Source: Ilex aquifolium (lineage: Eukaryota; Streptophyta; Magnoliopsida; Aquifoliales; Aquifoliaceae). Taken from it: DNA of 64,000 nucleotides. Position 1 is the first letter of the stretch. Every line of letters begins with the position of its first letter. Made by a program: the position numbers and the translations under genes. Positions 1,468 through 51,132 of this stretch are shown here, in pieces. Where the stretch lies: positions 7,964,001-8,028,000 of the forward strand of contig OX637402.1 in the NCBI GenBank assembly GCA_951799425.1, in the 5' to 3' direction. The notes below the pieces were generated by a model that saw only the letters and a program-made list of their open reading frames with translations, made no database searches and was not told the origin of the DNA.

Positions 1468-2125
1468 TGTGACGCTCCCAAAATTTGGGGGTCCTTTCTC
1501 AACCAGTTGATCACTCATCAACCCGCGGAATAATCGTGGATACCGTATAACCCGATACCACGTCGTTACACCCCATTCATTGGGATCATAAATAACCAAA
1601 CGGAATATGGGCATAGTCTCCTTTGCACAGAAGCACTACCCAATACAAAATATGTTCACATATTAACCATATGACCCTTCGAAGGTCTAAATCTCAATTT
1701 TAGGACTTAATATTTAATCATTTATATCATCCAAAGAAGAGGGTTCACGATGTGAAGGTTCAGCAAGATTACATTTAAAATTTCTATTTTTGGGAAGAGG
1801 TACCGGTACCTCGAGTATGTGGTACCGGTATCCGGATACTCGACAAAGTGGTACCGGTACTTGTGAGCTTAGGTGCCGAAACCTGAGCCCACTGTCTTAG
1901 CGGTACTGGTACCTGTGAGCCTAGGTATCGGTACCTAGAGCCCAGATTTCCCCTAAACACTACAAAATTCAACTTTTAACCCAATAAGTCATTCAACATC
2001 TAGTCCACTCATTTATTTTACAAAAGAATAATGTTCCATTACATGCCTTAGTCAAAATACAAGTTTTGTACATGATTAATATAAGGCCAAACACAATTAC
2101 ATAATTGATTACAAAATGTAATTTA
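1468..2125 (-). repeat. Element D 3' LTR, distal part
   Basis: This is the last 658 bases of a D-family LTR in reverse orientation. Its outer 100 bases match, reversed, the end of the LTR at 33417-36418 (shared text around the proline-like run near 1480 and GTATAACCCG near 1545). A hairpin-forming block at 1607-1641 is shared with other LTR families. The remaining part of this LTR resumes at 28093 after element A. It carries the palindrome cluster listed separately. Confidence 0.75.
1799..1935. repeat. Paired GGTACCGGTACC palindrome array (D 3' LTR)
   Basis: Six copies or variants of the 12-bp palindrome GGTACCGGTACC have centres at 1804.5, 1826.5, 1855.5, 1877.5, 1907.5 and 1929.5. The spacing therefore alternates 22, 29, 22, 30, 22 bp. 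Variants include GGTGCCGAAACC and GGTATCGGTACC. The D-family LTR at 33417-36418 has a different palindrome (ACCTTCCGGAAGGT) at the corresponding place. Function unknown; see findings. Confidence 0.85.
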
Positions 2126-2296
2126 TGTAACACCCTGCATTTTATTTTATATATGTATATAGATATATAGTAAATATTTGTTGTAAAATGTGGATATGTG
2201 TAGAAATATGTGTTGGAGAGATTTGGGATGGATTTGGTTGGTTTAGGAATGGATTGGAAATGGAAAAAAAAAGGGGGATGAAACAGGATGTGAACA

Positions 2297-2317
2297 GTGC
2301 ACGTAAACAGTGCACTG
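2297..2317. repeat. Pair of GTGCAC palindromes in A LTR
   Basis: GTGCAC (2297-2302) and CAGTGCACTG (2308-2317) have centres 13 bp apart. The same pair recurs in the right LTR near 9510-9530. The flank just upstream (GGATTGGAAATGG) resembles the sequence before the palindrome arrays of element B (GGATTAGAAATGA) and of the LTR at 33417 (GGATTGGAATTGA), so the pair occupies the same module. Confidence 0.7.
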
Positions 2318-4087
2318 GCTGCAACTTCAAGCGCGATTTTGACCTTGATGCAGTCAATATCTCTCAAAACATGAAAGTTGTAGAGATCTTTCTTATCATT
2401 CCATAGCATCTTGAATCATCTCAATCGGAGTTCGGATGAGAGAGTTATGCCCATTCTACGAAGATTGGTTTGGTGTATGCCGAAACAGTAAAAAAATCGG
2501 GATTTTTGGGTTTAAAACACCACCTCAAGCCCTCATTTGCCCCATTCTTCACTCCAATCTCATCCTAAACACTTTAGAACCCTAGGAAAGAAAGAAAGGA
2601 AGAGAGAAACTCAAGATCAAAGGAGAAAACACAAGATTTAAGGGTGATTCAAGATTCAAGCTTTAGATTTCAAGAACACCAAGGTAGGGTTTTCTTCCAT
2701 TCTTGTCCATTGATGTTAGGGTTATTATACATGTAGAATTTGGCTCTTAATAGTATGTATTTGTTATGGGTTTCTTATTCCTTGGTATGTTTACAAACAT
2801 TCACATGATTTGAACAAAATGATGGTTGAAAATCCATCAAACTCTAGTTTTTTGGGGAAATATGGATTTTTCTCTATATCTTCACATCATTTTGATTTCG
2901 AAAATTCTAGAACTTTGTGTTGGGTAGTAAAATGATTGTATTGATGATCTCATGCTTATTTCCTTTAAACTTGTCTCTTGTAACATGATTTGCGAAATGG
3001 GTATGTTTTCTTAAATTGTTCTATTATGTATCTTGCTTGTGAAAATTGGGGAAAATCATGGAATTTGCTTGTATATGAGGTTGAGTATATTGTTGGTATG
3101 TCACTCTTGTGTATGGTGTTGTGAGGGACTTGAATTACCTTCGAGAGATGCCGTAGAGTGTTAGAGGTTAGTCTATCCCAGTGGGGGTGAGATGGTTGCC
3201 TAATGTTCGTAGTGGATCGTTGTTGTGACCGCGATCACTATTGTTCACATATATATCGAGGAAAAGGGTTAGTATACTAGACACCTTGGGAGGATCTCGT
3301 CAATGTCGTATGAGACGGTACACGCCCTTCTTAAATTGGTCTGTGATTGTTATTGGAAATGGGTGAACGAGGTAGAATCGTCGGGTAGATTCATGAGAAG
3401 CGACAACCTACTTGAGTGGTACCAAATAGAAATTATTGTTCATTGTACCAAATATTATTTCTCCAAGAGTTTCGGGTAGTATGGGGTGCCGCGATAACTT
3501 GTGGAAATGGTGTATGGTGGAGTGGATTATGTTGGAAATTGTTTGTCAATTAAACGTGGTTTTATTCTCTTTCAATTCCTTATTATTGTATAAACTTGAG
3601 ATCTCCTTTAAAATGTCCTTATTTTATTTTAGAAATTTATTTATATGTATGTGCGAAATGTGACCTACCTGTTTTACTTGATTTCAAAACCTTGAATGGG
3701 TTTGGAAGGATCCTCCTACAGAGCCTTGTGCTCACCCTCCCTTACTTCCCCACCTTTCAGATTTTGCCTTTGACGAGGAGCTGGGAGTCGAGGGGCCGAC
3801 ACATTGGGAGACTCCGACAGAAGAGAGCGTGGATCCCGAGGTGGACGCGTAGAGCGACCCCCTCCCCCCCTTTCTTTTGTTATAGACTTGGATAATCTTT
3901 TGGAAGAATTGTATAGCCTAGTTTTATTTTGTAAATTCCACTGTGTATTATAGTACTTTTGTGGGGATGTAAAGGCCCTAGCTTGGCCTATTCTTTTGGG
4001 ATAACATGTAAATTTGATGTATTGATTTTATGGTAGTTAAATGGACCCGGTGTGATCATTACAGTAGAATTGCACAGGTTGTGTTTT

Positions 4088-4121
4088 GGGTAGAGCTCCC
4101 CGAACAAAGGAGACTCTGCCC
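4088..4121 (+). promoter_or_regulatory. Conserved U5 hairpin
   Basis: GGGTAGAGCTCC and GGAGACTCTGCCC form an imperfect stem around an 8-9 base loop. The same structure, with changed arm bases, occurs in D-family LTRs (32311-32344; reversed at 1607-1641) and in the element C LTR (16646-16679, reversed), but not in the LTRs of B or E. It lies about 110-150 bp before the LTR end. A role in RNA structure or 3'-end formation is a guess. Confidence 0.55.
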
Positions 4122-4236
4122 GAATTTTGTTAAATTAAGGACCCCCGGTTATTTATGGATTTATTAGTTGCTCTCATGATATGAATGATTATTGAATGTA
4201 ATGCCGTCCAGGGTGGTATTTGGGGCGTTACAGAAA

Positions 4237-4740: not shown

Positions 4741-5347
4741 AATTTGGCTTTTGGTTTGTAAATGAGATTAGGCATGGATCTTGATTGCGATTCATATTAT
4801 TTATATTGGAGATGGGTATGAGATAGGATGTGTGACAAAGACACTCAAACTTGAGTTAGACAAGTATAAAGGAACCAAACAGTCCGGCAGACCACCTCGC
4901 ACCAATTTGTTCATAACTCTTCATTGGAAAGTCCAAATTGTGCACCGTTATTTTTGTTAGAACCCTAACTCGTATATCTTTCCAACCATATAGGTCACGC
5001 ATGCTCAAAATGCTTGAGTCAAATCAGTTTATTCTTCAAAGTTGGTCAAAAATCTGCACTGTGGTGTTCTTTAGACAGTAAAGTGTTGTACTTTCTTCTT
5101 AGATTCTAAAGGACCTATCCTTAAGTGAACTTCCACATTATTTAGGCTTTGATTGAGAGACACCCCCATATTGATTGAAGTGCTTTTGATGGATAACAAT
5201 ATAAAAGGTGATTATGATTTGATGCTTGTCAACTTTAAGTATTCTCTTCCACTAATAGTATTGCTCATATTTTAGAAGTCAAGGGATATGATAACCCAAT
5301 TGGGATGTGTGGAGATAAGGTTAACTTAGAGGTTGATTAACCCTAAA
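4741..5347. other. Non-coding interior of element A
   Basis: No coding similarity is visible. Phrases such as GTTCATAACTC and a single GTCCGG near 4880 resemble the flanks of palindrome modules in nearby LTRs, so part may derive from another LTR. It ends at the candidate solo LTR G. Confidence 0.4.
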
Positions 5348-5601: not shown

Positions 5602-5635
5602 CCACCGTCCGGACGGTGGGACTGCCGTCCGGACG
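5602..5635. repeat. Pair of CCGTCCGGACGG palindromes (G LTR)
   Basis: CCACCGTCCGGACGGTGG (5602-5619) is an 18-bp perfect palindrome. CGTCCGGACG (5626-5635) is a 10-bp palindrome. Their centres are 20 bp apart and the second centre is 58.5 bp upstream of the TATA box at 5689. Confidence 0.8.
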
Positions 5636-5688
5636 ATCACCCTTGTCAGACTCAGCCTCATCCCTTCCCCCACTTGCCTTCATTTGCC

Positions 5689-5696
5689 TATAAATA
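5689..5696 (+). promoter_or_regulatory. TATA box of LTR G
   Basis: TATAAATA followed by a pyrimidine-rich, then strongly purine-rich leader (5740-5825) looks like an LTR promoter. It stands 58.5 bp after the last palindrome centre, the same distance as in LTR B. Confidence 0.65.
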
Positions 5697-6420: not shown

Positions 6421-6509
6421 CTATATATATATATATATAAATATTACAAGATAACCTATTGAATAATTCAAGTATGCCGCTCAAGTAACTTCACTTTCTG
6501 GGTGATATA

Positions 6510-11292: not shown

Positions 11293-11554
11293 TGTAACAC
11301 CCCGCATTTTCGTTTATATATGTATATAGATATATACTAAATAATAGTTGTGAAAATGTTGATATAGTATAACTCGAGGAAAGAATATTTGAAATTTAGT
11401 TTTATTATGTAAAAATATGAAATTTTATGTCCTAAAACTTGTACTAAATAGGTTTGAGGTAGAAATATATGTTGGAGAGGTTTGAGATGGTTTTGGAAGA
11501 GATTGGAATGGATTAGAAATGAAAAATAAAGGAAGTAGGCAAATCTGGGATCAA

Positions 11555-11701
11555 CTACCGGTAGTCAATGGTCCAGTGTGCCCGAGCTACCGGTAGTCAA
11601 CAGGTAGTCGAGTGTCCAGTGTACCCGAGCTACCGGTAGTCAACAGGTAGTCGAGTGCCAATGTACCCGAGCTACCGGTAGTCAAAATTAACTACCGGTA
11701 G
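11555..11701. repeat. CTACCGGTAG palindrome array (B 5' LTR)
   Basis: Five perfect 10-bp palindromes CTACCGGTAG have centres at 11559.5, 11591.5, 11634.5, 11676.5 and 11696.5, with GGTAG half-sites about 11 bp after two of them. Two more palindromes, GTTCGCGAAC (11727-11736) and AACCGGTT (11737-11744), lie between the array and the TATA box. The last full CTACCGGTAG centre is 58.5 bp from the TATA box. Confidence 0.88.
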
Positions 11702-11754
11702 TCACTGTAAAAATCAGACAATTTTAGTTCGCGAACAACCGGTTTTTCCCCCAC

Positions 11755-11762
11755 TATAAATA
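11755..11762 (+). promoter_or_regulatory. TATA box of LTR B (5' copy)
   Basis: TATAAATA lies downstream of the palindrome array and upstream of a CT- then purine-rich leader (AGAGAGAAAGAGGGG near 11817), the usual layout of a plant LTR promoter. The transcript would start about 30 bp further on. Confidence 0.75.
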
Positions 11763-17562: not shown

Positions 17563-18183
17563 AAATGTGTATCACAAGCAACCCAACCAAGAATACAATC
17601 TCAATATTTATCTCCATTTCCAATCATTTATCCAAAATCCCCAAATTTAAGCATGTGACATTGTCAATAACCAACCAAGAAAAATGCAAGAGATCATTAT
17701 AAACATCATTTGTTGCACAATATAAAACTCTAAGTTTTGAAAGTGAAAACCAAGGAATTACCAAGAGAAAAGTCCATTTTCCTTACCAATCAATGATTGA
17801 AGATGAAAAAGAAAGATAAAATGGTTACCAAACCATCACATAGTTCAAAACATGGCATTGATTTCAAAAATATAAAGAATCAAAGATTTCCCTAACACAT
17901 ATCCAAGATTTAGAGAAAGAGACATATGTATATACATATATATATATATATAGCCCTAGCCTCAATGTGAGAGAGTGAGAGAAAACCCCTACCTTGCTCC
18001 TTAATTTTTGTGTGAAGAACTAGAAGAATTGATCCTTTCCCAACTTGAATCACCACCTCAATCTCTTGTTTTTCCCTTCCTTCTTCCCCTCTAAGCCTCT
18101 CAATTGTTAGATTGGATGAAATGGCTTGCAAATGGGAGAGAAAACGCCCAAAACAAGTCTGGAACGTGCAGACCCCGGTATGG

Positions 18184-18280
18184 CGCGTCCGGACGCGTGT
18201 TTTGTGCTGTCCGGACGCGTGTTTTTGCGTCCAAGTTACTGCCATACGCGTCCGGACGCGTGTATATTCCCGTCCGGACG
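18184..18280. repeat. GTCCGGAC palindrome array (C 3' LTR)
   Basis: Four palindromes: CGCGTCCGGACGCG (18184-18197), GTCCGGAC (18209-18216), ACGCGTCCGGACGCGT (18246-18261) and CGTCCGGACG (18271-18280). Centres are 18190.5, 18212.5, 18253.5 and 18275.5: two pairs of 22 bp, 41 bp apart. The text on the far side (around 18300-18400) matches, reversed, the sequence before the TTCGAA array of LTR E. Confidence 0.9.
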
Positions 18281-18681
18281 CGGGTGACAGTATACCCGCA
18301 GCTTCCAGATCAATTTTGACCTATTTAGAAGCCGATTTAGAAAATTTGTGTGAAATACACTTTTGTAGCCCTTGAAGTCTACTATCTACTGTCCAAATAT
18401 CAGATCAATTTAAGCTAGGATTAAAAAGTTATGATCGAAATACTAGACAGTGTTCAAAAATCCTTTTTACCCAAATTCCCTCTAAAGTGTGCTTTCATTC
18501 CGAAAATCTTCCTAACTTCCAATACATACTCTATTACCTCGCCTAACATTTCTATTTCTACTCTTACACTCTACATAGTTCATGCATACATCATCACATA
18601 AATTAGCATTCCTAAACATAATTACTTTACTATATATATATAAAAAAAAAGAAAAAAAAAAAACGAATGTGGGGGTTTACA

Positions 18682-18722: not shown

Positions 18723-21700
18723 TCAAGTAGCGAATAAATACGGATACTTCTCTCGCATCTCCAGCTCCGGTTCCCAAGTAGCTTCTTCCAGTCCATGATG
18801 TTGCCATAACACTTTCACCAATTTGATGACTTTATTGCGAAGCACCTTTTCCTTGGTATCGAGAATCTTCACCGGTTGTTCTTCATATGTCGCTCCGTCT
18901 TGAATTTCTATATCTTCCAAGTCCACGACCGGCGTTGTTTCCGATTGACACTTCCTCAGCATCGACACGTGGAACACGTCGTGCACCCCGGACAACTGAG
19001 CCGGTAACTGAAGTTGATACGCCGCTTTGCCCACAACTTTGATCACTTCAAACGGCCCGGTATATCTTGGCGCTAACTTTCCCTTCTTGCCGAATCTAAA
19101 TACTCCTTTCTTGGGCGACACTTTGAGGAACACGTAGTCTCCCACTTTGAATTCCAAGGGTCTTCGTCTTCTATCCGCATAGCTCTTTTGTCGACTCTGT
19201 GCTGTGCGTAATCTCTCCCGAATGAGCTGAATCTTCTCCGTTGTCTCCCGCACAATCTCGGGCCCAAACATACTACTCTCTCCGGCTTCCAACCAACACA
19301 TCGGGGATCTACATGGTCTTCCATACAAAGCTTCATACGGTGCCATCCCGATACTCGCTTGGTAGCTGTTGTTGTACGCAAATTCCACCAACGGTAAGTG
19401 ATCGCTCCAACTCCCCTTGAAGTCCAACGCGCAAGCCCGTAACATGTCTTCCAAAATCTGTATCACTCTCTCGGATTGGCCATCTGTTTGAGGGTGAAAG
19501 GCTGTGCTGAAGTGTAACTCTGTCCCCATAGCTTGTTGTAGACTTTGCCAAAAATGAGCCACAAAACGAGAATCGCGATCCGACACGATAGAAAGTGGAA
19601 CTCCATGCAATCGAACAATCTCTCGAATGTACAGTCTGCTCAAGGTCTCTAACGAGTCTGTGGTCTTCATCCCCAAAAAGTGAGCTGACTTGGTGAGTCG
19701 ATCTACGATAACCCATACGGCGTTATGCCCTCTTGAAGTCCGTGGAAAACCCGACACGAAGTCCATGGTGATGTGATCCCACTTCCACTCCGGAATAGGC
19801 AAAGACTGTAGGACTCCTCCTGGCCTTTGATGCTCAATCTTCACCTGCTGGCACACCGCACATTTTGCCACATACCTGGTCACATCTCGCTTCATTCCCC
19901 TCCACCAGTATTGACGCTTCATGTCCCTATACATCTTTGTGCTACCAGGGTGGATAGCAAACTTGGAGCGATGACACTCTCCCAGTATTTCCTCCTTTAG
20001 GGACGAATCATTGGGAACACATAGCTTCTCCCCATATCTCAACTCTCCATTCTTCCAAGACCATCCTTCAATTGCTTCTCCATTCTCCAATCGGGCTCTA
20101 ATCAAATCGAGTTCCGAATCCAAGCATTGCAACTCCACCACCCGTTGCCGAAGTGTCGGTTGAGCCATAAGGTTGAATATATAGGGTTGATACTCCGGTC
20201 CCTCCACCCATAGGTTGTACTCCTCCAATGCATCAATCATTTTCCACCTATTTACCGCAAGAGAATTGATTTCACCCCGAGACTTCCTGCTAAGAGCGTC
20301 AGCAACTACATTGGCCTTCCCCGGATGGTAGTTGAGCGTAAACTCATAATCTTCCAAGTACTCAATCCACCTTCTCTGTCGGAGATTCAAGTCTTTCTGT
20401 GTGAAGATATACTTGAGGCTTTTATGGTCCGAGAACACTTGAAATTTCTCCCCGTATAAATAACATCTCCACAACTTAAGAGCAAACACCACCGCAGCTA
20501 GCTCCAAGTCGTGTGTGGGATAATTCTGCTCATGCACCTTGAGTTGCCTCGAGCCATAAGCCACTACCTTCCCTCCTTGCATTAGAACGCATCCCAAGCC
20601 TCGTAGGGAAGCATCGGTGTAGACATCGTAGCCTTCCCCACTACTCGGAATAATGAGGATAGGCGCCGTTGTCAACTTCTCCTTCAAGGTGCGAAAAGCT
20701 AGTTCACACGCTTGAGTCCATAGAAATTTCTCCCCCTTCTTTGTGAGGCGAGTCATCGGCATCGCAAGCTTGGAAAACCCTTCCACAAACCTACGATAAT
20801 AGCCGGCTAACCCCAAGAAACTCCGTACTTCTGTCACGTTCTTCGGTGGTTCCCATTTCATCACGGCCTCAATCTTTGCGGAATCAACCGCTACTCCTTG
20901 TTCGGACACAACATGGCCAAGGAACTTCACTTCCTTCATCCAAAACTCACACTTGCTCATCTTCGCATATAACTTATATTCTCTCAATGTTTGTAGCACA
21001 ATAGAGAGATGACGAGCATGTTCCTCCTGAGTTTGTGAGTAAATCAATATGTCATCAATAAACACAATGACAAATTGATCGAGGTAAGGTCGGAAGACTC
21101 TGTGCATCAAATCCATGAAGGCTGCGGGGGCATTAGTCAATCCGAACGGCATCACCGTATACTCGAAATGACCATACCGGGTACGGAAAGCAGTCTTTGG
21201 AATATCCTCCTCCTTAATCCGCAACTGATGATAACCCGTGCGAAGATCAATCTTGGAGTAATATTTCGAACCCTTCAACTGATCAAATAAGTCATCAATT
21301 CTCGGCAACGGATACTTATTCTTCACAGTAACCCGATTCAACCTCCGGTAATCCGTGCACAACCGTAGAGTCTCATCCGTTTTCTTCACGAAGAGGACCG
21401 GGGCTCCCCAGGGTGAAGTGCTTAGGCGGATGAACCCAATCGCCAACAAATGATCCAACTGCTTCCTTAGCTCCTTCAACTCCAAAGGTGCCATCCGGTA
21501 GGGAGCAATGGATATGGGTTCGGTTCCCGGATAGAGATCGATCTTGAACTCAATTTCCCTATGTGGCGGTAATCCGGGTAATTCCTCGGGAAAAACATCC
21601 GAAAACTCCGATACAATTAAAACCACATCCGTATGGAGTTTATCCCTGTCATCTCCCATCAAGCTAGCTAAGAAACTCAATTGACTTCCCGCTTTCGCTT

Positions 21701-23276
21701 TTAAGAATCTACTACCCGTAGTAGGGAATGGATGGGAAGAATCTCGGTTATTCACAAAACTGAAAACGACTCCCCCCGGTAACTGAAATGTAATCCGTTT
21801 GCGGAAACAATCCATTACTGCCCGGAAAGCAGACAACAAGTCCATCCCGAAAATCACATCATACCCCTTTATCTCTAAAGCAATCAAATCCACAATCAAT
21901 TCGTGCTCCCCAATGCGAAGCACACAATCCTTGCAGACTTGGCTAGTATCTAACCGTTCTCCCGTGGGCAAGCTAATGTCCATAACATGCTCTAGCTTCG
22001 TGAAACTCAATCCCAAATCAAGTGCATATGTTGTGCGTACAAATGAGTGGGTTGCACCGGGGTCAAATAATATTCGCGCCCAAGAATTGTAAATAAGGAC
22101 AATACCTTCCACAACGGCATTGGCAATGTCCTCCTCCGGCTGAGTCAAAGCAAATACCCGCCCTTGGTTGGCGCCGCCGGGGGCTTGAGCTTGTATCGGT
22201 CGCTGCGGTGCAGGCCTCGGTGGTGGTGGGTGGGCTGCTGGTACCTGTCTGGTGGTCTGGATAGGCCCCTGAGGTGGAAAAACTGGGCAATGCATCCGAA
22301 GATGTCCCACACCTCCACATGCAAAACAGGATCGTGGGGTAAAACCGGCTCTAGTCTGAGTGTCTCCCTCTCCTCGGGCTGTCAAAAGTCGCTGTCCCTC
22401 TGTCTGGTCTGGGCGACGGTATGGTGTCGGTCTCTGTGCCCCACTAGTGCTAGCACCCGTCCAGATCGGACCTCCCCTCGAGAAGCCCTGTCGTCGCTGG
22501 CTATCCTCTATGTCTCTCTCTACCAGTGCAGCTCTATCCACCAAGTCCCCAAAATCACGTATCCGGAGAGCCACCAACTTCTCCCTAATGACTGGCCTCA
22601 GACCCTGCTCGAAGCGCTTGGCCCTGTCGGCCTCAGTCGATATAAATCCCGTAGCATAACGGGAAAGCTCGTCGAACCGCCTCTCATACTCAGCCACGGT
22701 CATACTACCCTGTCGTAGTGTAAGAAAATCCGCCTTCATTCTGTCTCTGACCGATTCAGGGAAGTATTTATCTTGGAAAAGTTGATCGAACTCTTCCCAA
22801 GTGAGTGTGTCGATGTCCCTTCTCCTCTTTATGGCATCCCACCAATAGTCGGCCTCCCCTTCAAACAAGTAGGTTGCCAAACCAACTCTCAAATCCTCGG
22901 CAACTCCCATGCCGTCACAGATCTTCTTCACTCGGCGGATCCATCTATCCGCCTCCAAAGGATTGGAGCTCCCTTGGAAGTTGGGTGGTCGTTGTCGTAG
23001 GAATTCCCGAAGAGCGATCATCCTTCGGTCTCCGTTCCCATTGCCCGGTACTTGAGCGAGGGGATGAGCTCCACCATTGTGGTTGTTGTTACCATTTTGG
23101 CTTTGTACCAAAGTGGTGAGCTCCCTCAAGCATTGGTAAATGCCTTGCATGGCATCCGGAGGTGGTGGTGGTGGTGGATTTGCTTGACCTCCACGGCCAC
23201 GCCCACGTCCGCGTCCCCGTATACCTTCCATCCTGCACATCACTTCACAATTCAGTTTCATTGATGTACAAGGCAT
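18723..23276 (-). CDS. gag-pol: Gag-Pol polyprotein of element C (Tekay/Del-like chromovirus), intact
   Basis: One frame of 1,517 residues encodes the whole replication machinery of the retrotransposon. Visible in order: Arg-Gly and polyproline N-terminus (about 16-40), capsid-type gag (about 85-260), zinc knuckle [14 protein letters not shown] (317-330), aspartic protease with D405 in LFDPGATHS, reverse transcriptase (about 585-780) with FIDD (D741, D742), RNase H (about 870-1000; D888, E925, D950, D993), integrase zinc domain (H1102, H1109, C1139, C1142), catalytic D1172, D1233 and E1269 with 35 residues between the last two, a GPF segment (about 1404-1416) and a chromodomain-like tail (about 1463-1515; [15 protein letters not shown]). 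All key residues are present. DPG rather than D-S/T-G in the protease is a variant. No frameshift separates gag and pol, so one polyprotein is expected. The start could be M1 or M16. Confidence 0.96.
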
Positions 23277-23403
23277 CCTAAGTATAGATTTAATCTAAAG
23301 CATAAAGTTTATATCAAACTAGACCACAATTTCCTTCACCCTAATCCTATATCTCTAATGGTGATCCATAACCTACAGCTCCCATGTAAGACCTAAAGCC
23401 TAG

Positions 23404-24453: not shown

Positions 24454-25078
24454 AAATGTGTATCACAAGCAACCCAACCAAGAATACAATCCCAATATTT
24501 ATCTCCATTTCCAATCATTTATCCAAAATCCCCAAATTTAAGCATGTGACATTGTCAATAACCAACCAAGAAAAATGCAAGAGATCATTATAAACATCAT
24601 TTGTTGCACAATATAAAACTCTAAGTTTTGAAAGTGAAAACCAAGGAATTACCAAGAGAAAAGTCCATTTTCCTTACCAATCAATGATTGAAGATGAAAA
24701 AGAAAGATAAAATGGTTACCAAACCATCACATAGTTCAAAACATGGCATTGATTTCAAAAATATAAAGAATCAAAGATTTCCCTAACACATATCCAAGAT
24801 TTAGAGAAAGAGACATATGTATATACATATATATATATATATATATAGCCCTAGCCTCAATGTGAGAGAGTGAGAGAAAACCCCTACCTTGCTCCTTAAT
24901 TTTTGTGTGAAGAACTAGAAGAATTGATCCTTTCCAAACTTGAATCACCACCTCAATCTCTTGTTTTTCCCTTCCTTCTTCCCCTCTAAGCCTCTCAATT
25001 GTTAGATTGGATGAAATGGCTTGCAAATGGGAGAGAAAACGCCCAAAACAAGTCTGGAACGTGCAGACCCCGGTATGG

Positions 25079-25175
25079 CGCGTCCGGACGCGTGTTTTGT
25101 GCTGTCCGGACGCGTGTTTTTGCGTCCAAGTTACTGCCATACGCGTCCGGACGCGTGTATATTCCCGTCCGGACG
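25079..25175. repeat. GTCCGGAC palindrome array (C 5' LTR)
   Basis: Identical in content and spacing to 18184-18280: two pairs with 22 bp between centres. Confidence 0.9.
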
Positions 25176-25574
25176 CGGGTGACAGTATACCCGCAGCTTC
25201 CAGATCAATTTTGACCTATTTAGAAGCCGATTTAGAAAATTTGTGTGAAATACACTTTTGTAGCCCTTGAAGTCTACTATCTACTGTCCAAATATCAGAT
25301 CAATTTAAGGAAGGATTAAAAAGTTATGATCGAAATACTAGACAGTGTCCAAAAATCCTTTTTACCCAAATTCCCTCTAAAGTGTGCTTTCATTCCGAAA
25401 ATCTTCCTAACTTCCAATACATACTCTATTACCTCGCCTAAAATTTCTATTTCTACTCTTACACTCTACATAGTTCATGCATACATCATCACATAAATTA
25501 GCATTCCTAAACATAATTACTTTACTATATATATATAAAAAAAAAGAAAAAAAAAACGAATGTGGGGGTTTACA

Positions 25575-25974: not shown

Positions 25975-26236
25975 TGTAACACCCCGAATTTTCGTTTATA
26001 TATGTATATAGATATATACTAAATAATAGTTGTAAAAATGTTGATATAGTATAACTCGAGGAAATAATATTTGAAATTTAGTTTTAGTATGTAAAAATAT
26101 GAAATTTTATGTCCTAGAACTTGTACTAAATAGGTTTGAGGTAGAAATATATGTTGGAGAGGTTTGGGATGGTTTTGGAAGAGATTGGAATGGATTAGAA
26201 ATGAAAAATGAAGGAAGTAGGCAAATCTGGGATCAA

Positions 26237-26441
26237 CTACCGGTAGTAACTACTGGTAGTCAATGGTCCAGTGTGCCCGAGCTACCGGTAGTAACTACCG
26301 GTAGTCAATGGTCCAGTGTGCCCGAGCTACTAGTAGTCAACAGGTAGTCGAGTGTCCAGTGTACCCGAGCTACCGGTAGTCAACAGGTAGTCGAGTGCCA
26401 ATGTACCCGAGCTACCGGTAGTCAAAATTAACTACCGGTAG
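26237..26441. repeat. Expanded CTACCGGTAG array (B 3' LTR)
   Basis: Centres at 26241.5, 26254.5 (CTACTGGTAG), 26286.5, 26299.5, 26331.5 (CTACTAGTAG), 26374.5, 26416.5 and 26436.5, with half-sites at 26342.5 and 26385.5. Spacing alternates about 11-13 and 31-32 bp except for the last step of 20. The two LTRs of one element differ in copy number here. Variants at the central CG are CG to TG and CG to TA. Confidence 0.88.
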
Positions 26442-26494
26442 TCACTGTAAAAATCAGACAATTTTAGTTCGCGAACAACCGGTTTTTCCCCCAC

Positions 26495-33416: not shown

Positions 33417-36400
33417 TGTGAAACCCCGGAAAATTTAAACTTTGACGAACAAGGGCAATAGGTGAATTGCCACTTCGGTACTAGTTGAAAAACTGAATTT
33501 TTCTAGATCTCGGATGACGAAACGGATTCCACCGTTGGATTCGTCTCGCGAAATCTAGTTACCACGTCAAATTTCGTTGAATTCCGAGATAGTCGGATTT
33601 TTCGCGTTTTACGAGACGAACGGGCCTCGGGTGACCCCGTGCACGAAATTTTTATAAAATTTTAAAGTTTGGGGAAATATTAGAGGCAAGTTGAAAATAA
33701 AAATAATTCGAACTTGAACCGGAGCGAAATTTAGTCGTTTCGAGATTAAAACGGACCCGAAATTAAATAGGACATGTGGCCAATTGTGGGCCAAGTATCC
33801 TAAAAATATAAATAGGGGCCTAAAGTCTGAAAAATTAGACTTCTCCTTCACCATTTCAACCGGTTTCAGCCGAGAGAAAAGAAGAGAGGGAAAATGAGAG
33901 AAAACTCCACCTTCTCTCTACGATCTACTCCGTTCTAGCGCTCAAATCGACTCGGGCCAAGAACAAGAGTTGCTCTACGCGTTGAGGGCTACGCGTGGGT
34001 ACCAAAAACGACGGTTTTCACCGAAAGTTGGAGGGCCGAAAATTTGGAAGTGAAGGATTCAAGCTTGCTTTGAGTTCTAGGAGCTTCCCACGGCGATTCT
34101 ACACGCTACAAGAGGTAGGGTTTTCTTCCTACTTAGGTTTATTTCCAACCTAGGAAGGTTATATGGAATGGGTAGGTGTATATATATATGTATCACTTGC
34201 CTATTGTGGTTATTTGGGTGAAATGGGTATTGAGAATGGGTAGCAAGATTTAAATCACATTCTCTAGTTTAATGTACCACTAATGCATTTCATGTGTGGG
34301 AAATGAGTACCAAATGTGCTAAGCAAGGTTGGTATGAAATGGGTATATAAATTTACTTGTTGGGTAAATTTCATAAAGAAACTTGAAGTGTAGAAAATTG
34401 ATATGGGAAATTGGGTAAAGTGAATTCCTAAATGAAATGGACAATTAGGAATGGTTGTTGATAATTTCCTGAGAAATCATGACATATGAGGTTATGTTAT
34501 GGGTAGAATGAATTCTATCTTGGTATAATTGTGTAGAAATCAATTAATATGATTTCTTGAGCTTTATGATGAATTTGAGTATATTATGTGATTACATGAT
34601 CTTGGATGCTTTGAAGGTGTTGAGTAAATGCTTTGATGAAAATGTGAAGTATGTTTTGCATGAATTATGTATAACATGCTTAGATATTGTGATTAAGGAA
34701 AATGTTGATATACACATTCTTACGAGATGTTGACAAAGTGTTGAATTATGGTATTTATATGCATAGGCTTATGATATGAAGTACCATGGATATGTGGGTT
34801 TATTGTTGAGTTGTTCATATGGCATTCATACATATTGAACATGTGGAGAAGATGCAAGGGTACATTACATTGCATTCTCATGGCTACATCACATTCATGG
34901 TTATAAGACATGAGTGGGTGTGGGTGAGTTGACATCGCATTCATGGGTCATGGGCATGAGTGTGGGTGTGTGCATATGTTGTGGATCAAACACCAAATCT
35001 TGGTGGTTGGTATGTGAACTCGGGAAAGTCGGGATCGAAGATCCGACTGAGTTGCACGGTTGCATTGCATAAGGAAAACTTGTGTCAGGTAGAGCAAGTA
35101 GGGCTAGACACTCCCTCGGGTGAAAAACCCGGAACCACTTGGTTCAGTCATTTGACCAGCGGTGAAATACCAGAAAAGTGGCATGGCCCACGGAGCCAGT
35201 GGTGCGACTCCAAAATCCGTTGCCCAAAAAGACACAAGATTTTGTTGTATAAAAACACCCATTCAATGGGTAGCCTCTAACAATGATTTGATTTTTTATA
35301 AAGACATAACTTTTATCTCAAACGATCATTGGGAGGGTTTCTCCGTCAATAGACGGGTTCATACACGTTGGCTTTTGCATTGTGTTGTGTGAGTCGGGGA
35401 AGACTCGGGATAAGGTGCGTGAGTGAGTTCCATCTCATATCATGGCATGACATAGCATAGCATGGTAGCTTTCTAACATTGAAGTATATACTCTTGTTGG
35501 ATTGGTTGATGCTTGTTGATTGTTGCATGTGCGCATTTCATATGCACTTAGGTTGGGGAGTAACCTCTATAGGAGGATATCCTATTGAGCGTGGCTCACC
35601 CTTCGTGGGACAACATTTCAGGTGCGGGGTTCACGCCGGCGGACGGCTCCCAATTCGAGCCCCAAAGTTGAAGAAAGCCGACTTGTGGCTTTTATGGTTA
35701 TTTAGTAAAGTTTTTGTAAGAATTCCATTTTGAGATGTAAATATATGGAATCAATTGTAATAGAACTTGTACAAACAATGTTTTATGTTAGAAACTTCAT
35801 TGTATAAGTTTTGGATGATTTTGAAGTGATTTGAAATGGATTGGAATTGAAAAACTAAGGAAGGAAGAAATTCTGGGCAAAACCTTTCGGAAGGTCACTA
35901 AAACCTTCCGGAAGGTTAAGGCAGAATTGTGGTCCATAAGGTAAAACCTTCCGGAAGGTCGATTTAAAACCTTCCGGAAGGTCTTCACATTTTTCCAAAA
36001 TATGGATTTCAGAGTGTGAACCTTCCGGAAGGTTTGAGTACACCTTCCGGAAGGTCGACACGTTTCATTTTTCAAACTATTTTCCAGAAGGCAAAACCTT
36101 CCGGAATGTTAAGAAAAACCTTCCGGAATAACTTTTCCAGTGAGCAAACCTTCCGGAAGGTTGAGTCAAAACCTTCCGGAAGGTTTTCTAAAAATTTGAA
36201 ATTTTCAAAATGCTTAGCCATGCTTTTGGGCTTTGTTTTCTTTGGTTCCTATGACATAAATGGACATAAATTGAGGTATAATTGACCTTGTGGATGGTAA
36301 ATCCGGTTAAAAGCATGTGAATGACGTGGTGTCGGGTTATACGACTATCACGAGTATTTCCGCGGGTTGACGGATGGTCAACGGTTAATAAAGGACCCCC

Positions 36401-36418
36401 GGGTTTTGGGGCGTCACA
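33417..36418 (+). mobile_element. Long D-family solo LTR in gag of X
   Basis: TGTGAAACCCC...GGGGCGTCACA, 3,002 bp, with a GGGGG duplication (33412-33416 and 36419-36423). The gag frame of X is continuous across it. TATA box at 33807-33814. It is about 0.9 kb longer than the solo LTR at 30262, partly because of the palindrome-bearing block at about 35760-36240, whose upstream flank resembles the U3 of LTR B. Confidence 0.92.
35883..36183. repeat. ACCTTCCGGAAGGT palindrome array
   Basis: Eleven copies or variants. Centres: 35888.5 and 35909.5, 35952.5 and 35975.5, 36026.5 and 36048.5, 36085.5, 36102.5 and 36124.5, 36154.5 and 36177.5. Within-pair spacing is 21, 23, 22, 22 and 23 bp. The best copy is AACCTTCCGGAAGGTT (35902-35917). 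TTCCGGAA also fits TTCnnGAA, the inverted heat-shock factor half-site pattern. Apparent reading frames across it are repeat artefacts. Confidence 0.9.
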
Positions 36419-36579: not shown

Positions 36580-37912
36580 TGCTTGACTTATTTCGTCGTT
36601 CCTAATTTTTGAACATCACCCGGTCATGTATATATGGCTTATATGGATAGGTGAGTGTCACTCTCACTCGGGTTCGATGCAAGAAATGGAAAAACGAGTG
36701 TGTGAATGAAAATGTGTGTGTGTGTGTGTGCAAAAGTGCTCCCCAAGCATAGAGAGACTCTTGTAATGTCATGTTTTACTTGGAATGGGTATTCCAAGGT
36801 CGTCTCCTCAGAGAAGGAAGGTGAATTGTGTTGAAGGTGATTTTGTGAAAAAAATGGAAAAGTGTAAAATCTTTGAGTTTGTGTTTTGGTGAGTGAGATT
36901 TTGATAAAGATGCAATGGAAACAATGTTGGCTAATCCAAAGAGTTCATTTCAATGGGAATGTCAAATCAACTCAAAACATTCTTCCAATTGTGTATAGGT
37001 GTTCGATTGATTCGTAAGAAACGAGGGACTAAAATGGAAGTGAGGGCTCAAGCATACCTCGTGGCAAGTCTACGGTGTATCAAGAACTCACAACCACGTC
37101 TGCACTCAACCTAGTCAAACCAAACCACCTTTCACTACGAGGAAGAATGAACGAGAGTCGATTTCACATACCCAAGAGGAAATCTCCCTTGGATTAGCCA
37201 ACTAAAAATCTAGCTACTCATATTAAATACAAAGACATTCATAATGTAAAGACACATAGTGAAGAAATGAAGATTAAAACTTGTATTAATGCTAATAAAT
37301 GTTAAACTACGAAAATAAGTTCATTTAATACCCATATGTAAAGCTTGAATGGAAAACTCAAATACAAACATGGTAGATTCAAGAAGATGTAACTAAACTT
37401 GCAATACACTTGAAATAAATGAGATTAAAGTGTAAGAACTAAGGATTACAAGAGTAATACAGCTTACTAGAAGTGAAATGGGTATGAAAATGCAAAAATC
37501 CAAACTTTATCTTTCTAGAACTTCATCTTCTTCCTTGGGAACTTCTCTCTCTAAACTACTCATAAGCTTAGGTAGCCTCCTCCTCTCAAAAGCTTATGTG
37601 AAGCTGAATAAATGGTGCAGAGACCTTTACATTTTCATCCATAGGGCTCTTCTTGCATGTGTGTGCAGGCCTCCCATCAATGGGAGGTGAGTTGATGACT
37701 TTGGACAAGCTAGGACAAGCCTAGCCTGCAACCCATCATGCCTCCTCCTTCTCATTCCTCCTTTCCCATCCTCCATCTTCCAAGGCTGACTTTAGGGTGT
37801 AGGAGGCATGTATGTATGTAGAATATGTCAGGGGACAAGTGGAAGAATCATAGGTGGGACCCCCAAGTGGCAGAGCTTGAGTTGCAGGGTGTTCTGGCGG
37901 TTCTAGGCCAAA

Positions 37913-37946
37913 CCTTCCGGAAGGTCGATGCAAACCTTCCGGAAGG
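37913..37946. repeat. Pair of CCTTCCGGAAGG palindromes in X-family LTR
   Basis: Two perfect copies with centres at 37918.5 and 37940.5, 22 bp apart. They are the same palindrome as in the D-family LTR at 35883-36183, though the two LTR families are unrelated. ACATGAAAGTTGTAGAT lies nearby on the minus strand (about 38040-38056), as beside the GTGCAC pair of LTR A. Confidence 0.85.
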
Positions 37947-38113
37947 TGCCAGCTCAAGACCAGTTTTCGTAAAATTGTCATAAATTTTGATCCAATTGTC
38001 CGATTGAGCTGAAATTTTGACGCAATACAGAGGACATCCAGATCTACAACTTTCATGTTTTTCATTTTTTCAGATTAGAAGTGGATCATGATAAAAAAAA
38101 TGGAGAAAATAGA

Positions 38114-38177
38114 GGTACCAATACCAAATGGTGCGGGTGCCGGTACCAAAATTCAAGTAGGCTTAGTTACTGGTGCC
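38114..38177. repeat. Degenerate GGTACCGGTACC array in X-family LTR
   Basis: GGTACCAATACC (centre 38119.5), GGTGCCGGTACC (38141.5) and GTTACTGGTGCC (38171.5) are spaced 22 and 30 bp, the same alternation as the GGTACC arrays elsewhere. No copy is perfect. Confidence 0.7.
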
Positions 38178-44780: not shown

Positions 44781-45163
44781 TTTGAAGGTAGCTTCACTGT
44801 AAACCTTCATGGGAAAAACTCATCTACTAGTGATCACCTAGTGGTTTAAAAATGTAGTGAGTAGGATAGGAAGAAATTGGAATACCATGGATTTTATTTT
44901 GTGCTTTACTTGATTTTGTTCATTTTTTTTAATTTAGAATTCCATTACATGTGTTTTGAAATCGTCAAGAATTAAATCGCGTTGCAATTTCGTAAATGAA
45001 TTAAGACAAAGTTAGATAGTGTGATTCAGTAGCATGGATCATGTTTTTGGGTAGTTAAGTTAGGAAATAGGTTTTTAGAATGTTTTGGAGTCAAATAAGT
45101 TAGATAGAATGGAATGGGAGTGAGAAAGAGCAACAAAGAAAAAAAATTGTAGAATTAAGGATA
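42872..45163 (+). other. Long spacer of X between pol and the third ORF
   Basis: No open frame. TTCAAGTTAGGGAGTGAGATG at 43147-43167 resembles the 3' polypurine end of X (CTCAAGTTAGGGGGTG, 47127-47142), so an earlier 3' end or an extra central primer may have been here. Then come short repeats of ATGCACCATTTGCATGATAC (43163-43270), a purine-rich tract (43980-44100) and a (GA)n run (44739-44776). Confidence 0.6.
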
Positions 45164-45227
45164 GGTATCGGTACTAAGTCAGAGAGGTACCGATACCTAG
45201 AAGATAGAACACTCAGGTACCGGTATC
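45164..45227. repeat. GGTACCGGTACC palindromes upstream of the third ORF of X
   Basis: GGTATCGGTACT (centre 45169.5), GGTACCGATACC (45191.5) and GGTACCGGTATC (45221.5) are spaced 22 and 30 bp, as in the LTR arrays. Here they are inside the element, about 190 bp before a possible start codon at 45415, after a leader-like CT-rich stretch. Confidence 0.75.
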
Positions 45228-47142: not shown

Positions 47143-48913
47143 TGATGAGTGCGAAATATTACACATTTAACCGCTAGCCTTATTACATCAATTTTAACTT
47201 GTTTTCGTAATGAATTGTTGGAAATTGATTTAAATCGGAGATTAATGGAGAATTGTTTGATTGCAAGTGATTGGATGGAAAATACAGGTGTTAATCACTT
47301 CGCAATGTGATCGGGGACAATGGGCAAGAAAGGATTTCAAGACAAATGGCTCGGGACCTTGAAATGCAGAAAAATCAAAGAAGGCAAGGGAGGTACCGAT
47401 ACCGCAATCACTAGGTACCGGTACCTGAGCTTACTGGAATGGAGGTACTAGTACCTGGCACCATAGTTATCGATACCTAAGCTTATTGGAATGGAGGTAC
47501 CGGTACCTGGCACTGTACCTTAACTTTTCAAAAATTGAAGAAATGAAGGAGGTACCAGTACCCTCATCACTAGGTACTGGTACCTGAACCTATTGCCATC
47601 GAGGAATCGGTACCTCATCAATTGGTACTAGTACTTAAAGCCCAAAAATCCCAGATTTGTTTATCCATGATTCCACGCGCTGCAAGGGCCCATTTCCTAT
47701 TATCCAATCAAGTTTTTGACCACTTCAACACTCCACCACAGTCTGGATTTAGCCTTTTGCTTGAAAGAGTGGAAGGGGGCAATGATGATATGATAGGAGA
47801 GAGTGGTTGAAAAAAGAAGGGGGGGCATGCTTTGGACTGACTTTGGAAGCCTTTTTGGATAACCTCTTCCCAAAGCAACTAATCTCTACACACTCAATAG
47901 TATAGATAGGAGGATGGACGAAAATTGGACTAGATTTTGGAAGACATTTTTTCAGCTTTTAGAGGGAGAAGCTCCAAGGAAGAAGAAGGTAGTTCTAGAG
48001 AGAGAAAGCTAGGATTTTTGCTTTTCCTTCACCATTTTCATTCTTGTAAGCTTCAATCTACATGTAAACCTTCTTTCTAGCACATTAATCTCGTTTATTT
48101 CAAGTTGTATTGAGTTTAGCTAGGGTTTACTAGTTCTATTATTTGTTTTGGGTATTTTCTCTTTAAGCTTTACATTTTGAGTATGAATACTATTTCTTTT
48201 GTAGTTTAAACTTCTTCTTACATTAATGCAAGTTCATGTTTGATTTTATTACCATGTTTTTCTCTTTCATGTTTGTTCTTGCCTTTATTATGAGTAGCTA
48301 AAGGTTTAGTTGGCTAAGAGGGATTTCCTTTTGGGTATGTGGAATCAATTCTTTTTCATTCTTCCTCGTAGTGTAAAGTGTTTGGTTTGACTAGGTTGAG
48401 TGCGGATGAATGTGGTTGTAAGCTTTTGATATACTGTACACTTGTCATGGGGTATGCTTTTGTCCAAGCAATTACATTCATCTCTCGCTTCTTACAAATC
48501 AATCAAACACCTTGGCACCATTGGTAGAATGAAATGAATTGATTTGGAATATCCATTGGAATGAACTCTATGAATTAGCCAACCCTCTTTTTACTTGCAT
48601 ATTTCTCAAAACACAAACCACCGAACGTTAAATCACAATATTTTACATTTTTCCCATTCACAAATCACTTTCGAAAACACTTGACCTTTCCTTCTCTGAA
48701 GAGACGACCTTGGAATAACATTCCAAGTAAAACACGATACTATAGGTCTCTCTATGCTTGGGGAGCATTTTTTCATATTCACATACATTTTTGTTCATCC
48801 GCACACAATTCCCCTGCATCTTGCATGAGTTTGAGCAAGAGTGACACTCACCCTTCATTATAGGTCATACACATAATCGAGTTCGTGTGGGATGCAAGGA
48901 AAACAACCAAGCA
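47143..48913 (+). repeat. Element X 3' LTR
   Basis: TGATGAGTGCGAAATATT...CCAAGCA, 1,771 bp. It matches, reversed, the solo LTR at 36580-38435 and, at its end, the remnants at 30200-30261 and 32388-32493. The U3 holds the largest GGTACC array of the window. The right flank is element D LTR. Confidence 0.88.
47392..47635. repeat. GGTACCGGTACC palindrome array (X 3' LTR)
   Basis: Nine copies or variants at centres 47397.5, 47419.5, 47449.5, 47471.5, 47501.5, 47556.5, 47578.5, 47608.5 and 47629.5. Steps are 22, 30, 22, 30, then 55, 22, 30, 21, so the layout is a 52-bp period with one site lost. Variants include GGTACTAGTACC, GGTACCAGTACC and GGTACTGGTACC, all changed at the central CG. Confidence 0.9.
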
Positions 48914-49190: not shown

Positions 49191-49254
<64 letters not shown>

Positions 49255-49695
49255 CCAGAAATGAGCTGAAGAAATGGGGTAGAAAATCTGATTTTTTTCC
49301 CCTTTTATACTCTTCCAATACTTGGCCTACAACGCACCACACGTCCCTTTTTTGATTGGTCCAATTTTATCCTGAATCAATTAAATTTCGTCCCGTGTTA
49401 AGTTTAGTACATTTTTATTGAACTAAATTTAAATTATTTTTCGGATTTCGCGAACAAGATTTGATCGTGTTTATTTTAGCCGCGCAACACCTAATTGCCT
49501 CGTAAAATGTAAAAAATTTGACTGCTTCAGATTTTGACGAAAATTGACTGAGTAGCTAAATTTCGCGATACGAAACCAACGGTGAGGTCCGTTTCATCAT
49601 TTGATTTGTAAAAAATTCAAACTTTTAACCCATACCGTAACAACTAATTACTGTTTTACCTTTTTTAATAAATTTTAATTTTCCTGGGTTTTAGA
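48914..49695 (-). repeat. Element D 5' LTR, outer part
   Basis: Reverse-oriented first about 780 bases of a D-family LTR. It matches 29217-29932, including the leader and the ACCAACGGTGAGG stretch near 49575. A (TC)n run fills 49194-49251. The LTR start reads TCTAAAAC instead of TGTAAAAC on the minus strand. The 3' remainder is missing because X inserted here and the region to its left was lost. Confidence 0.75.
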
Positions 49696-50653
49696 ACAAA
49701 TACATTGGTGACTATAATTCAATTGTATATTTTGGAGGTAATAAGTCCTCATGGGGTGCCTCTATCCATTGTGTCAGATTATGATAGTAGGTTTGTGGCT
49801 CAATTTTTGCAAAGCTTACAAAGATCTTTAGGAACGGATATACATTTTAGCACTACCTTCCATCCTCAAATGAATGGCCAATCCGAGAGAGTAATAAAGA
49901 TTATGGAAGATATGTGAAGGGCTTGTGTGTTGGATTTTAAGGGAAGTTGGAGTGAACACTTGCCATTAGTGGAGTTTGCCTACAGCAATAGCTATCAAGC
50001 TAGTACTGAAATGACTCCTTCTGAAGCTCTGTATGGTAGGCTATGTCGATCATCGACGTGTTAGGTGGAAGCTGGGGGGAGTAGTTTGTTTGGTCCTGAA
50101 ATAGTGAGGGAAACTATTGAGAAAGTTTAATTAATTCGAGAGAGATTGCATACTGCCCAAAGCTGGCAAAAGAGTTATGTTGATAAGAGAAGAATATCAT
50201 TGGAATTCAAGGTAGGTGATTATGTGTTCTTGAAGGTATCACCCAAAAAGGGGGTTACGCGTTTCAGAAAAAAAGGGAAAGTTAGCCCCAAAGGTATATG
50301 GGAACCTTTGAAATAATTCGGGTTGTGGGAAAGGCAGCATATCACTTAACCTTCCAACTTAATTGTCGGTAGTGCATGATGTGTTTTACGTATTAATGCA
50401 ATGAAAGTGTGAACCCGATACATCGCATGTGGTGGATTTGGAAGGAATTGAAATTTAAGAAGGAGTAATTTATGAAAAGCAGCTGGTAAGGATTCTCGAC
50501 ACCAAGGAGCAAGTGCTTCGGAACAAAGTGATATTATTGGTGAAGGAATTATGGCAAAACCATGGAGTGGAGAAAGGCACGAAAAAAGTACCCGCATTTG
50601 TTCACAACTTGAGATGCGTTTCAAGAACGAAACTTTCTTTTACGGGAGTGGAT
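49696..50653 (+). pseudogene. Element E integrase remnant and 3' end
   Basis: From 49705 codons read [20 protein letters not shown] and FHPQMNGQSERVIKIMEDM, giving the second Asp and Glu of the integrase catalytic triad. A stop at 49915-49917 and others follow, then [17 protein letters not shown] (50205-50255) and a degraded chromodomain-like tail. GTTTCAAGAACGAAACTTTC and a purine tract (ACGGGAGTGGAT) precede the LTR. It is close to element C but decayed. Confidence 0.8.
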
Positions 50654-50977
50654 TGTAAACTCTCATGTATTTATAATAATGTATATTATGTACCACGTGT
50701 TGCATGAATACTAAATGGTTTAGGAATAGGGATATCAGGTGAATTAGAGGTGTTTTGTATCTTGGGAAGCATGTTTGGGAGAAGTTAAGAAGAGAATAAC
50801 TAGATGTTATCATGGTATTTTACCCATAATTTTTTATTATGACATTAGTTTGATCTGATATTTTGACAGTAGAAACTAGATTTCAAGAGCTACAAAATTT
50901 TATTTCACAAAAAATTCGTGAATCAAATTCTAAGTAGGTCAAAAAGTATTGGAAGTTTTGATAGGAAATGGGAGTCA

Positions 50978-51132
50978 CGTTCGAACGCCAAGTCTCGTTT
51001 GAACGGAGTGTAGCTATAGTACTTTGCTGTATAATAGTAAGCTTGATAGAAATCGAGATATTGGGAGTAAGGAGTGTTCGAACGACAGTCCCGTTCGAAT
51101 GAGGCATGTTCGAACGCAAACCACATTCGAAC
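50978..51132. repeat. CGTTCGAACG palindrome array (E LTR)
   Basis: CGTTCGAACG (centre 50982.5), CGTTTGAACG (51000.5), GTTCGAAC (51079.5), GTTCGAAT (51096.5), GTTCGAAC (51111.5) and ATTCGAAC (51128.5). Spacing is 18, 79, 17, 15 and 17 bp. The last centre is 59.5 bp before the TATA box. Confidence 0.88.

Follow-up and report, generated by a model that had tools for sequence, protein, structure and literature searches.

The long terminal repeats (LTRs) of several retrotransposons in the genome of holly (Ilex aquifolium) harbor arrays of short palindromes centered on CG, and in many of them the dyad of the palindrome next to the promoter keeps a distance of about 58 bp to the first T of the TATA word TATAAATA. 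The arrays were studied in a stretch of 64 kb (contig OX637402.1, positions 7,964,001 to 8,028,000; hereafter the window), a nest of LTR retrotransposons lettered A to J below. They were followed in a 200-kb sample, made up of one 10-kb stretch at position 3.0 Mb from each of contigs 1-20, and by word counts over the whole assembly (800 Mb in 103 contigs). Directly observed are an excess of CG-centered palindromes, their arrangement in arrays, a register of 57-59 bp to TATA that several palindromes and two lineages of elements share, and promoter backbones that can be aligned although their palindromes differ. The arrays are probably promoter-proximal regulatory modules of Ty3/gypsy LTR retrotransposons, with the palindromes as predicted dimer sites in register with TATA. 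A sequence-only reading of the window had proposed selection on the arrangement of paired palindromes. The data support selection on an arrangement, yet among the distances found, the one from palindrome to TATA is kept best, ahead of the one from palindrome to palindrome.

Distance from the proximal palindrome to the TATA box

Nineteen array ends were read downstream, and eight of these arrays have TATAAATA within 400 bp. Four of them lie in the window, all on the forward strand:

5689..5696, forward strand: TATAAATA, 58 bp after dyad 5630
11755..11762, forward strand: TATAAATA, 58 bp after dyad 11696
26495, forward strand: TATAAATA, 58 bp after dyad 26436
51188..51195, forward strand: TATAAATA in element F, 59 bp after dyad 51128

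The distance is likewise 58 bp in loci L017 and L018 (both with CGTT palindromes) and L021 (CCGT). The CGTACC array of L017 has TATAAATA 62 bp from an array end that is roughly set, and a degenerate copy at 58 bp. The seven arrays at 58-59 bp are not independent, since they include both LTRs of element B, two related CCGT arrays, and two related CGTT arrays. Counted to the center of TATAAATA, 58 bp become 62 bp, about 5.9 helical turns at 10.5 bp per turn; 69 bp correspond to about seven turns.

A scan blind to the arrays took the window together with the 200-kb sample, in which 63 distinct TATAAATA sites have 220 bp of upstream sequence, and covered distances of 12 to 149 bp. Perfect CG-centered 10-mers occurred five times at 58 bp, three times at 78 bp, and at most once at every other distance; the five at 58 bp belong to three words, of which two occur as two related copies each. 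Genome-wide, pairs of a palindrome and TATAAATA were counted for dyad-to-TATA distances of 43-73 bp, with patterns covering the inner 8 bp of the palindrome only and repeat counts that may be lower bounds. Without any preference, 57-59 bp would take 3 of 31 distances, about 10%. The observed shares were 1237 of 1436 pairs for GTTCGAAC, 2482 of 3615 for TACCGGTA, and 634 of 1486 for GTCCGGAC, compared with 10 of 56, 1 of 61, and 2 of 11 for the respective reversed words. The GC-centered GTTGCAAC, composed of the same letters, gave 50 pairs in all (reversed control: 27), two of them at 57-59 bp. CCGG, palindromic or otherwise, was counted 12058 times compared with 5816 for the reversed pattern.

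All seven palindromes listed by the sequence-only reading were found at the positions it gave. Six of the seven are centered on CG, a trait that reading had not mentioned; the seventh, CAGTGCACTG, is GC-centered and occurs twice in each LTR, once in degenerate form, with 13 bp between the dyads. In the test against chance, palindromes of A and T alone were excluded and dinucleotide shuffles served as control. CG-centered palindromes of at least 12 bp number 23 in the window versus 1.7 after shuffling (both LTR copies of two elements counted) and 27 versus 5.5 in the 200-kb sample, and those of at least 10 bp clearly exceed the shuffles in the window and in the 20 stretches. AT-centered palindromes are at or below chance, GC-centered ones near chance, and TA-centered ones modestly raised in the window (10 versus 4.7). 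Over the whole genome, GGTACCGGTACC has 5913 copies versus 76 of the reversed word, and pairs of ACCTTCCGGAAGGT with 0-30 bp between them occur 3014 times versus 0 for the control. The palindromes are thus real and far above chance, and a chance origin is ruled out by the shuffles and the reversed words. The ratio of observed to expected CpG, on which the CpG-island trait was judged, is 1.0 over ten arrays versus 0.61 in the window, with single arrays ranging from 0.5 to 1.77. A symmetric double change at the CG center (CCGG to CTAG) was considered as proof of selection and rejected, since the few TA-centered copies fit independent CpG decay.

Different palindromes on shared and unrelated promoters

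Homologous LTRs carry different palindromes in the same place. LTRs G, H, and I are homologous, and the same stretch near the LTR 3' end holds ten ACCTT palindromes in G, six GGTACC palindromes in H, and none in I. Of the homologous LTRs D and E, the latter has GGTACC only, while D has degenerate GGTACC sites and an ACCTT pair. The related LTRs of elements B, C, and F bear CTACC, CGCG, and CGTT arrays, respectively, in the same part, about 270-490 bp from the LTR start. Upstream of the array lies a conserved border word, GGGCTACAAAAGTGT, with 3226 genome copies versus 1 for the reversed control. At 12 places on contig 1 it lies 95-245 bp upstream of the proximal palindrome, which is ACCTT in five, CTACC in two, CGTACC in three, and CGTT in two (matched places only, judged by eye).

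The promoters themselves can be compared between palindrome and TATA. Ungapped identity (0.15-0.44, with shuffles at about 0.25) had suggested that the spacer bases are unrelated between all families, a conclusion overturned by gapped alignment: the CTACC, GTACC, ACCTT, and CGTT promoters align over this stretch, with z values of 3.2 to 10.0 for pairs with different words. One ACCTT promoter is 75% identical to one CTACC promoter (gaps on both sides), with distances of 59 and 58 bp. Elements B (CTACC) and F (CGTT) are of Del type, and the ACCTT and GTACC promoters are probably so too, judged by alignment and, for ACCTT, also by the border word. The CGTACC promoters and the CCGT promoters of the L021 type could not be aligned with the rest (z -0.1 to 2.3; CCGT of L021 against the others -0.1 to 1.9), yet their dyads also lie 58 bp from TATA.

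In L021, the LTR is followed by the primer site TTGGCGCCGTTGCCGGGGA, of the tRNA-Asp type, and by gag and pol frames. Its reverse transcriptase (RT) region is 68% identical to the RT at 40516-41151 of the window and 32% to that of element C; L021 is presumably Athila-like. A stretch at about 5334-7296, nested in element A, is about 85% identical to the L021 LTR and holds the CCGTCCGGACGG (CCGT) pair. Element C and open frames of L018, L021, and L024 encode Ty3/gypsy domains.

The common distance might simply have been inherited if transposition and recombination dispersed a single ancestral promoter cassette. Descent of this kind agrees with the alignable promoters, with the near identity of copies within a family, and with the GGTACC arrays, which are repeats of a 52-bp unit. 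As the sole cause it is nevertheless unlikely. Plain inheritance of the 58-bp register is disfavored by the different words on alignable promoters, which differ by one bp in total length despite internal indels, and by the unalignable L021 promoter, which shares the register, as do the CGTACC promoters. Among 107 same-motif pairs of 60-75% identity, the net length change was 1.39 compared with 3.05 (sd 0.21) when the signs of the gaps were randomized, a difference that likewise speaks against plain inheritance but must be read with the facts that global alignment favors balanced gaps and that the 46 sequences were hand-picked.

Arrays, their spacing, and the resident elements

Dyad distances within the arrays were measured with degenerate copies allowed. 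Degenerate GGTACC matches 6 bp off better ones (1798, 38135, 47584), matches of one word on the array of another family, and lone degenerate matches, e.g. ACCTT at 36291, were excluded from the spacing counts. The arrays of the window are:

1799..1935, reverse strand: GGTACC array near the 3' end of LTR H; dyads 1804, 1826, 1855, 1877, 1907, 1929; gaps 22, 29, 22, 30, 22
38113..38177, reverse strand: degenerate GGTACC array in LTR D; dyads 38119-38171; gaps 22, 30
45163..45227, forward strand: GGTACC array preceding a CT-rich leader-like stretch; dyads 45169-45221; gaps 22, 30
47391..47635, forward strand: GGTACC array in LTR E; dyads 47397-47629; gaps 22, 30, 22, 30, 55, 22, 30, 21
35881..36187, forward strand: ACCTTCCGGAAGGT array near the 3' end of LTR G; ten copies, five pairs 21-23 bp apart; dyads 35888-36177; gaps 21, 43, 23, 51, 22, 54, 22, 30, 23
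37911..37947, reverse strand: ACCTTCCGGAAGGT pair in LTR D; dyads 37918 and 37940, 22 bp apart
18183..18282, reverse strand: CGCGTCCGGACGCG array in the 3' LTR of element C; dyads 18275, 18253, 18212, 18190; gaps 22, 41, 22
25078..25177, reverse strand: CGCGTCCGGACGCG array in the 5' LTR of element C; identical spacing 22, 41, 22
5602..5636, forward strand: CCGTCCGGACGG pair; dyads 5610 and 5630, 20 bp apart
11553..11702, forward strand: CTACCGGTAG array in the 5' LTR of element B; dyads 11559, 11591, 11634, 11676, 11696; gaps 32, 43, 42, 20
26235..26442, forward strand: CTACCGGTAG array in the 3' LTR of element B, which has more units than the one in the 5' LTR; proximal dyad 26436
50977..51133, forward strand: CGTTCGAACG array in the 3' LTR of element F; gaps 18, 79, 17, 15, 17; close neighbors 15-18 bp apart
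2295..2317, forward strand: CAGTGCAC pair in the 5' LTR of element A, spaced by 13 bp and found again at 9510-9532; not CG-centered and outside the class

The measured distances bear out the layout described by the sequence-only reading, including the alternation of 22 and about 30 bp in the GGTACC arrays. Its rule of a 20-23 bp spacing holds in part. Counted over eight window arrays of at least three sites each, a distance of 20-23 bp accounts for 17 of the 38 gaps between neighbors; random re-placement within the same spans gave 5.0 (sd 2.0) and never reached 17 in 5000 trials. Sharp classes also appear for ACCTTCCGGAAGGT, where 50 of the 3014 genome places, listed from one chromosome with many copies of one family, divide as follows within the searched range of 14-44 bp: 16 at 21-24, 27 at 30-32, 6 at 43-44, and 1 at 35 bp. 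The first three of these classes are near two, three, and four helical turns. In the 200-kb sample, other families use other spacings, namely 18 bp (CGTTCGAACG), 17 bp (AATCGATT), 12 and 32 bp (CGTACCGGTACG), 13, 16, and 31 bp (GTACCGGTAC), and also 20 bp, so that 20-23 bp is a common choice and not a genome-wide law. Within a family, spacing is partly inherited through tandem duplication of the unit. One LTR of element B has palindrome units that the other lacks; array length can therefore change within the lifetime of one insertion or during copying.

Between the variable palindromes, the word TCCAG(T)/(A)CTGGA recurs, e.g. at 11573-11577, 47433-47437, and 36137-36141 of the window. In 19 hand-chosen arrays, TCCAG and ACTGG rank first and second of 512 five-mers (21 versus 2.1 and 17 versus 1.8 expected; in 13 and 9 arrays), a post hoc ranking in related arrays that serves as a lead only. 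All ten distinct ACCTT spacers of 16-21 nt drawn from the listed ACCTTCCGGAAGGT pairs, most of them related, contain ACTGG or CCAGT. At locus L009 (2985-3031), the palindrome AAATCGATTT occurs three times at intervals of 17 bp; it is similar to the ATCGAT core of the Sirevirus Tnd-1 motif.

The elements and LTRs that carry or surround these arrays are:

LTRs 2126-4232 and from 9341: element A, Del-type
5' LTR 11293-13225 and 3' LTR 25975-27925, forward strand: element B, Del-type, located within the 3' LTR of element A and flanked by the 5-bp target duplication AGAAT
LTRs 16531-18682 (3') and 23420-25575 (5'), reverse strand: element C, Del-type, inserted in element B
18723..23294, reverse strand: intact gag-pol open frame of element C, 1523 codons; gag, protease, RT, RNase H, integrase, SH3_Tf2-1, chromodomain-like end
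3' LTR from 50654, forward strand: element F, of the same Del-type kind as A, B, and C
33417..36418, forward strand: LTR G, TGTRAAACCC type, 3.0 kb, with TATAAATA at 33807
30262-32387: solo LTR I, TGTRAAACCC type, target duplication ATTTT
29932 to 28097 and 2125 to 1468, reverse strand: LTR H, TGTRAAACCC type, split by element A
At 63078: LTR J, TGTRAAACCC type
38438 to about 36592, reverse strand: LTR D, third LTR type
47143 to about 48913, forward strand: LTR E, third LTR type

Elements A, B, and C have in common the LTR ends TGTAA...TTACA, the iMet-type primer site TGGTATCAGAGC, and the purine tract TTTAAGGGGGG. By its domain order, element C belongs to Ty3/gypsy. We take it to be a Del/Tekay element, as it shows the domain order, the SH3_Tf2-1 domain in the integrase, a chromodomain-like C-terminus, the iMet-type primer site, and the purine tract. 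Pfam did not call a chromodomain at this C-terminus. Before LTR E (45500-46800), the sequence looks by eye gag-like and then of very acidic coding potential, and self-comparison revealed repeated stretches at 15079-16152 (element B) and 17337-17566 (element C).

Related systems and the proposed mechanism

The closest known counterparts are the palindromic repeated motifs of Sirevirus LTRs and the plastic CpG islands of Del LTRs. The sequence-only reading had known of no matching system, but the Sirevirus motifs match in kind. They are palindromic and family-specific, precede a conserved TATA box within the upstream half of the LTR, and form CpG islands (Bousios et al., 2010; PMC2829016). They have a CGG-CCG core in all but Tnd-1 and at least eight copies per element; of 13 consensus words, three (Vitis, Usier, Tnd-1) have an even length and a CG center, whereas most have at least one base between the half-sites (PMC2829016). 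The account of the motifs calls them specific to Sireviruses among the elements compared and does not give an exact dyad-to-TATA distance (PMC2829016). Like those motifs, the holly arrays are family-specific, CpG-rich, and placed before TATA, the last in 8 of 19 arrays and not in LTRs G and H. Unlike the Ty1/copia Sireviruses, the elements here are Ty3/gypsy, with even CG-centered palindromes and a 57-59 bp register. The copy number in the window is 2 to 10 per LTR and reaches eight in one LTR in G and E only, the Sirevirus threshold referring to whole elements. The CGG-CCG core occurs in overlapping form in the CCGG-centered families and is absent from CGTTCGAACG and AATCGATT.

Del LTRs are described to have a variable 5' CpG island; palindromes are not mentioned in the main text (the stem of that word does not occur), and the description of the island gives no fixed register (PMC4029996). 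Elements A, B, C, and F presumably belong to the same lineage, and the unequal unit number in the LTRs of B fits such plasticity. Palindromes and fixed register set the holly arrays apart from that description. Tnt1, a copia element, has a symmetric activator box in the U3 region of its LTR, which the holly palindromes resemble in symmetry and place, here outside copia; Tnt1 is not known to exchange palindromes on a common backbone. A published report of a fixed palindrome-to-TATA register was not found in the open-access literature covered on palindromic LTR arrays, and the arrays resemble a known kind with a register rule added. A search of IMG/VR, where records near this genome may be left out, gave no relatives of an RT piece and no ACCTT pairs.

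VANDAL elements, which are DNA transposons, offer a further comparison. In Arabidopsis, the VANC targets in these elements are short motifs, often in tandem, that diverge between related elements (PMC5735166). Along these lines, the arrays could form a shifting CpG-rich target that resists methylation, or that binds an anti-silencing protein encoded by the element. The raised CpG ratio of the arrays, the Del islands that vary in length and sequence and are termed a moving target (PMC4029996), and the variable tandem VANC targets (PMC5735166) speak for this. VANDAL elements, however, encode their own DNA-binding anti-silencing protein, whereas the long frame of element C has gag-pol domains only and no extra domain (other elements were not fully scanned), and neither variant predicts dyad symmetry or a fixed distance to TATA. 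We consider this explanation quite improbable as an account of the arrays, although it is compatible with a promoter role. It is harder still to credit the proposal, made in part by the sequence-only reading, that palindrome pairs act as transcript hairpins, for an RNA function or as small-RNA triggers as in maize Sireviruses: folding is strong (z -3.6 to -12.7 in nine arrays) and small RNAs map to the palindrome clusters of those elements (PMC10760457), but any repeated palindrome folds in this way, the small RNAs may be a consequence, and hairpins need inverted repeats, which leaves the CG-centered palindromic copies and the fixed TATA distance unexplained.

Several observations weigh against the promoter-module interpretation. 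In 11 of the 19 arrays, TATAAATA is absent within 400 bp (G, H, D, E, the array at 45 kb, both LTRs of C, L001, L024, ACCTT of L017, and CGTACC of L018). LTR H has TATAAAT at 78 bp from its array, and LTR G and the ACCTT array of L017 have TATA-like words beyond 200 bp. In G and H, the array is found close to the 3' end of the LTR, in G about 2 kb downstream of TATAAATA, so that arrays of this type might lie in the 5' leader of the RNA; they do not fit a promoter placement and may act as enhancers or in some other way. A number of the copies within arrays are degenerate, and spacing within arrays varies between families. The genome counts are not independent events, because family copies share their distance by descent, and the independent combinations of palindrome and backbone are estimated at five to seven. 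GTTGCAAC is an imperfect control: of its 50 places, ten, including one of the two at 57-59 bp, resemble one family with TGATTGG-like words 59-62 bp before TATAAATA, and a GC-centered word may therefore use a nearby place. Among the 100 listed GTCCGGAC places, the majority of those not at 57-59 bp have CGCG-type right halves and lie at 69-72 bp, about one helical turn further. TTCCGGAA has 273 pairs in all versus 48 for the reversed control, and 100 listed places include one family at 59 bp and another mostly at 55-58 bp with longer C-run variants.

Under the promoter-module interpretation, each palindrome would be recognized by a protein that binds DNA as a dimer and is most likely a transcription factor of the host; a literature search with TCCGGA for the identity of such a factor gave no useful match. 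Further palindrome copies, often in helical phase, would raise occupancy. The nearest dimer would touch the general transcription machinery and hence have to keep register with TATA. Families might swap the factor, or escape silencing, by replacing the palindrome. An exchangeable factor is suggested because different words occupy the same slot, and a dimeric protein in stereospecific register with the basal machinery because the dyads keep one distance to TATA. A wider version, plausible but put forward tentatively, is a single promoter grammar with an exchangeable address: any CG-centered palindrome, each with its own dimeric factor, would stand 58 bp before TATA, on a common backbone in the Del-type elements and on an unrelated one in the Athila-like elements, which would have reached the same register.

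If this is true, retrotransposon lineages switch the address while the register stays. The U3 region of plant retrotransposons is usually considered to evolve quickly and to be difficult to align. Its control regions could be found and compared by means of a rule that is blind to the letters but fixes symmetry, CG center, and TATA distance. Such a rule would also predict a family of dimeric, strictly stereospecific activators, and the change of host regulator by a retrotransposon would become directly testable with few reporter constructs.

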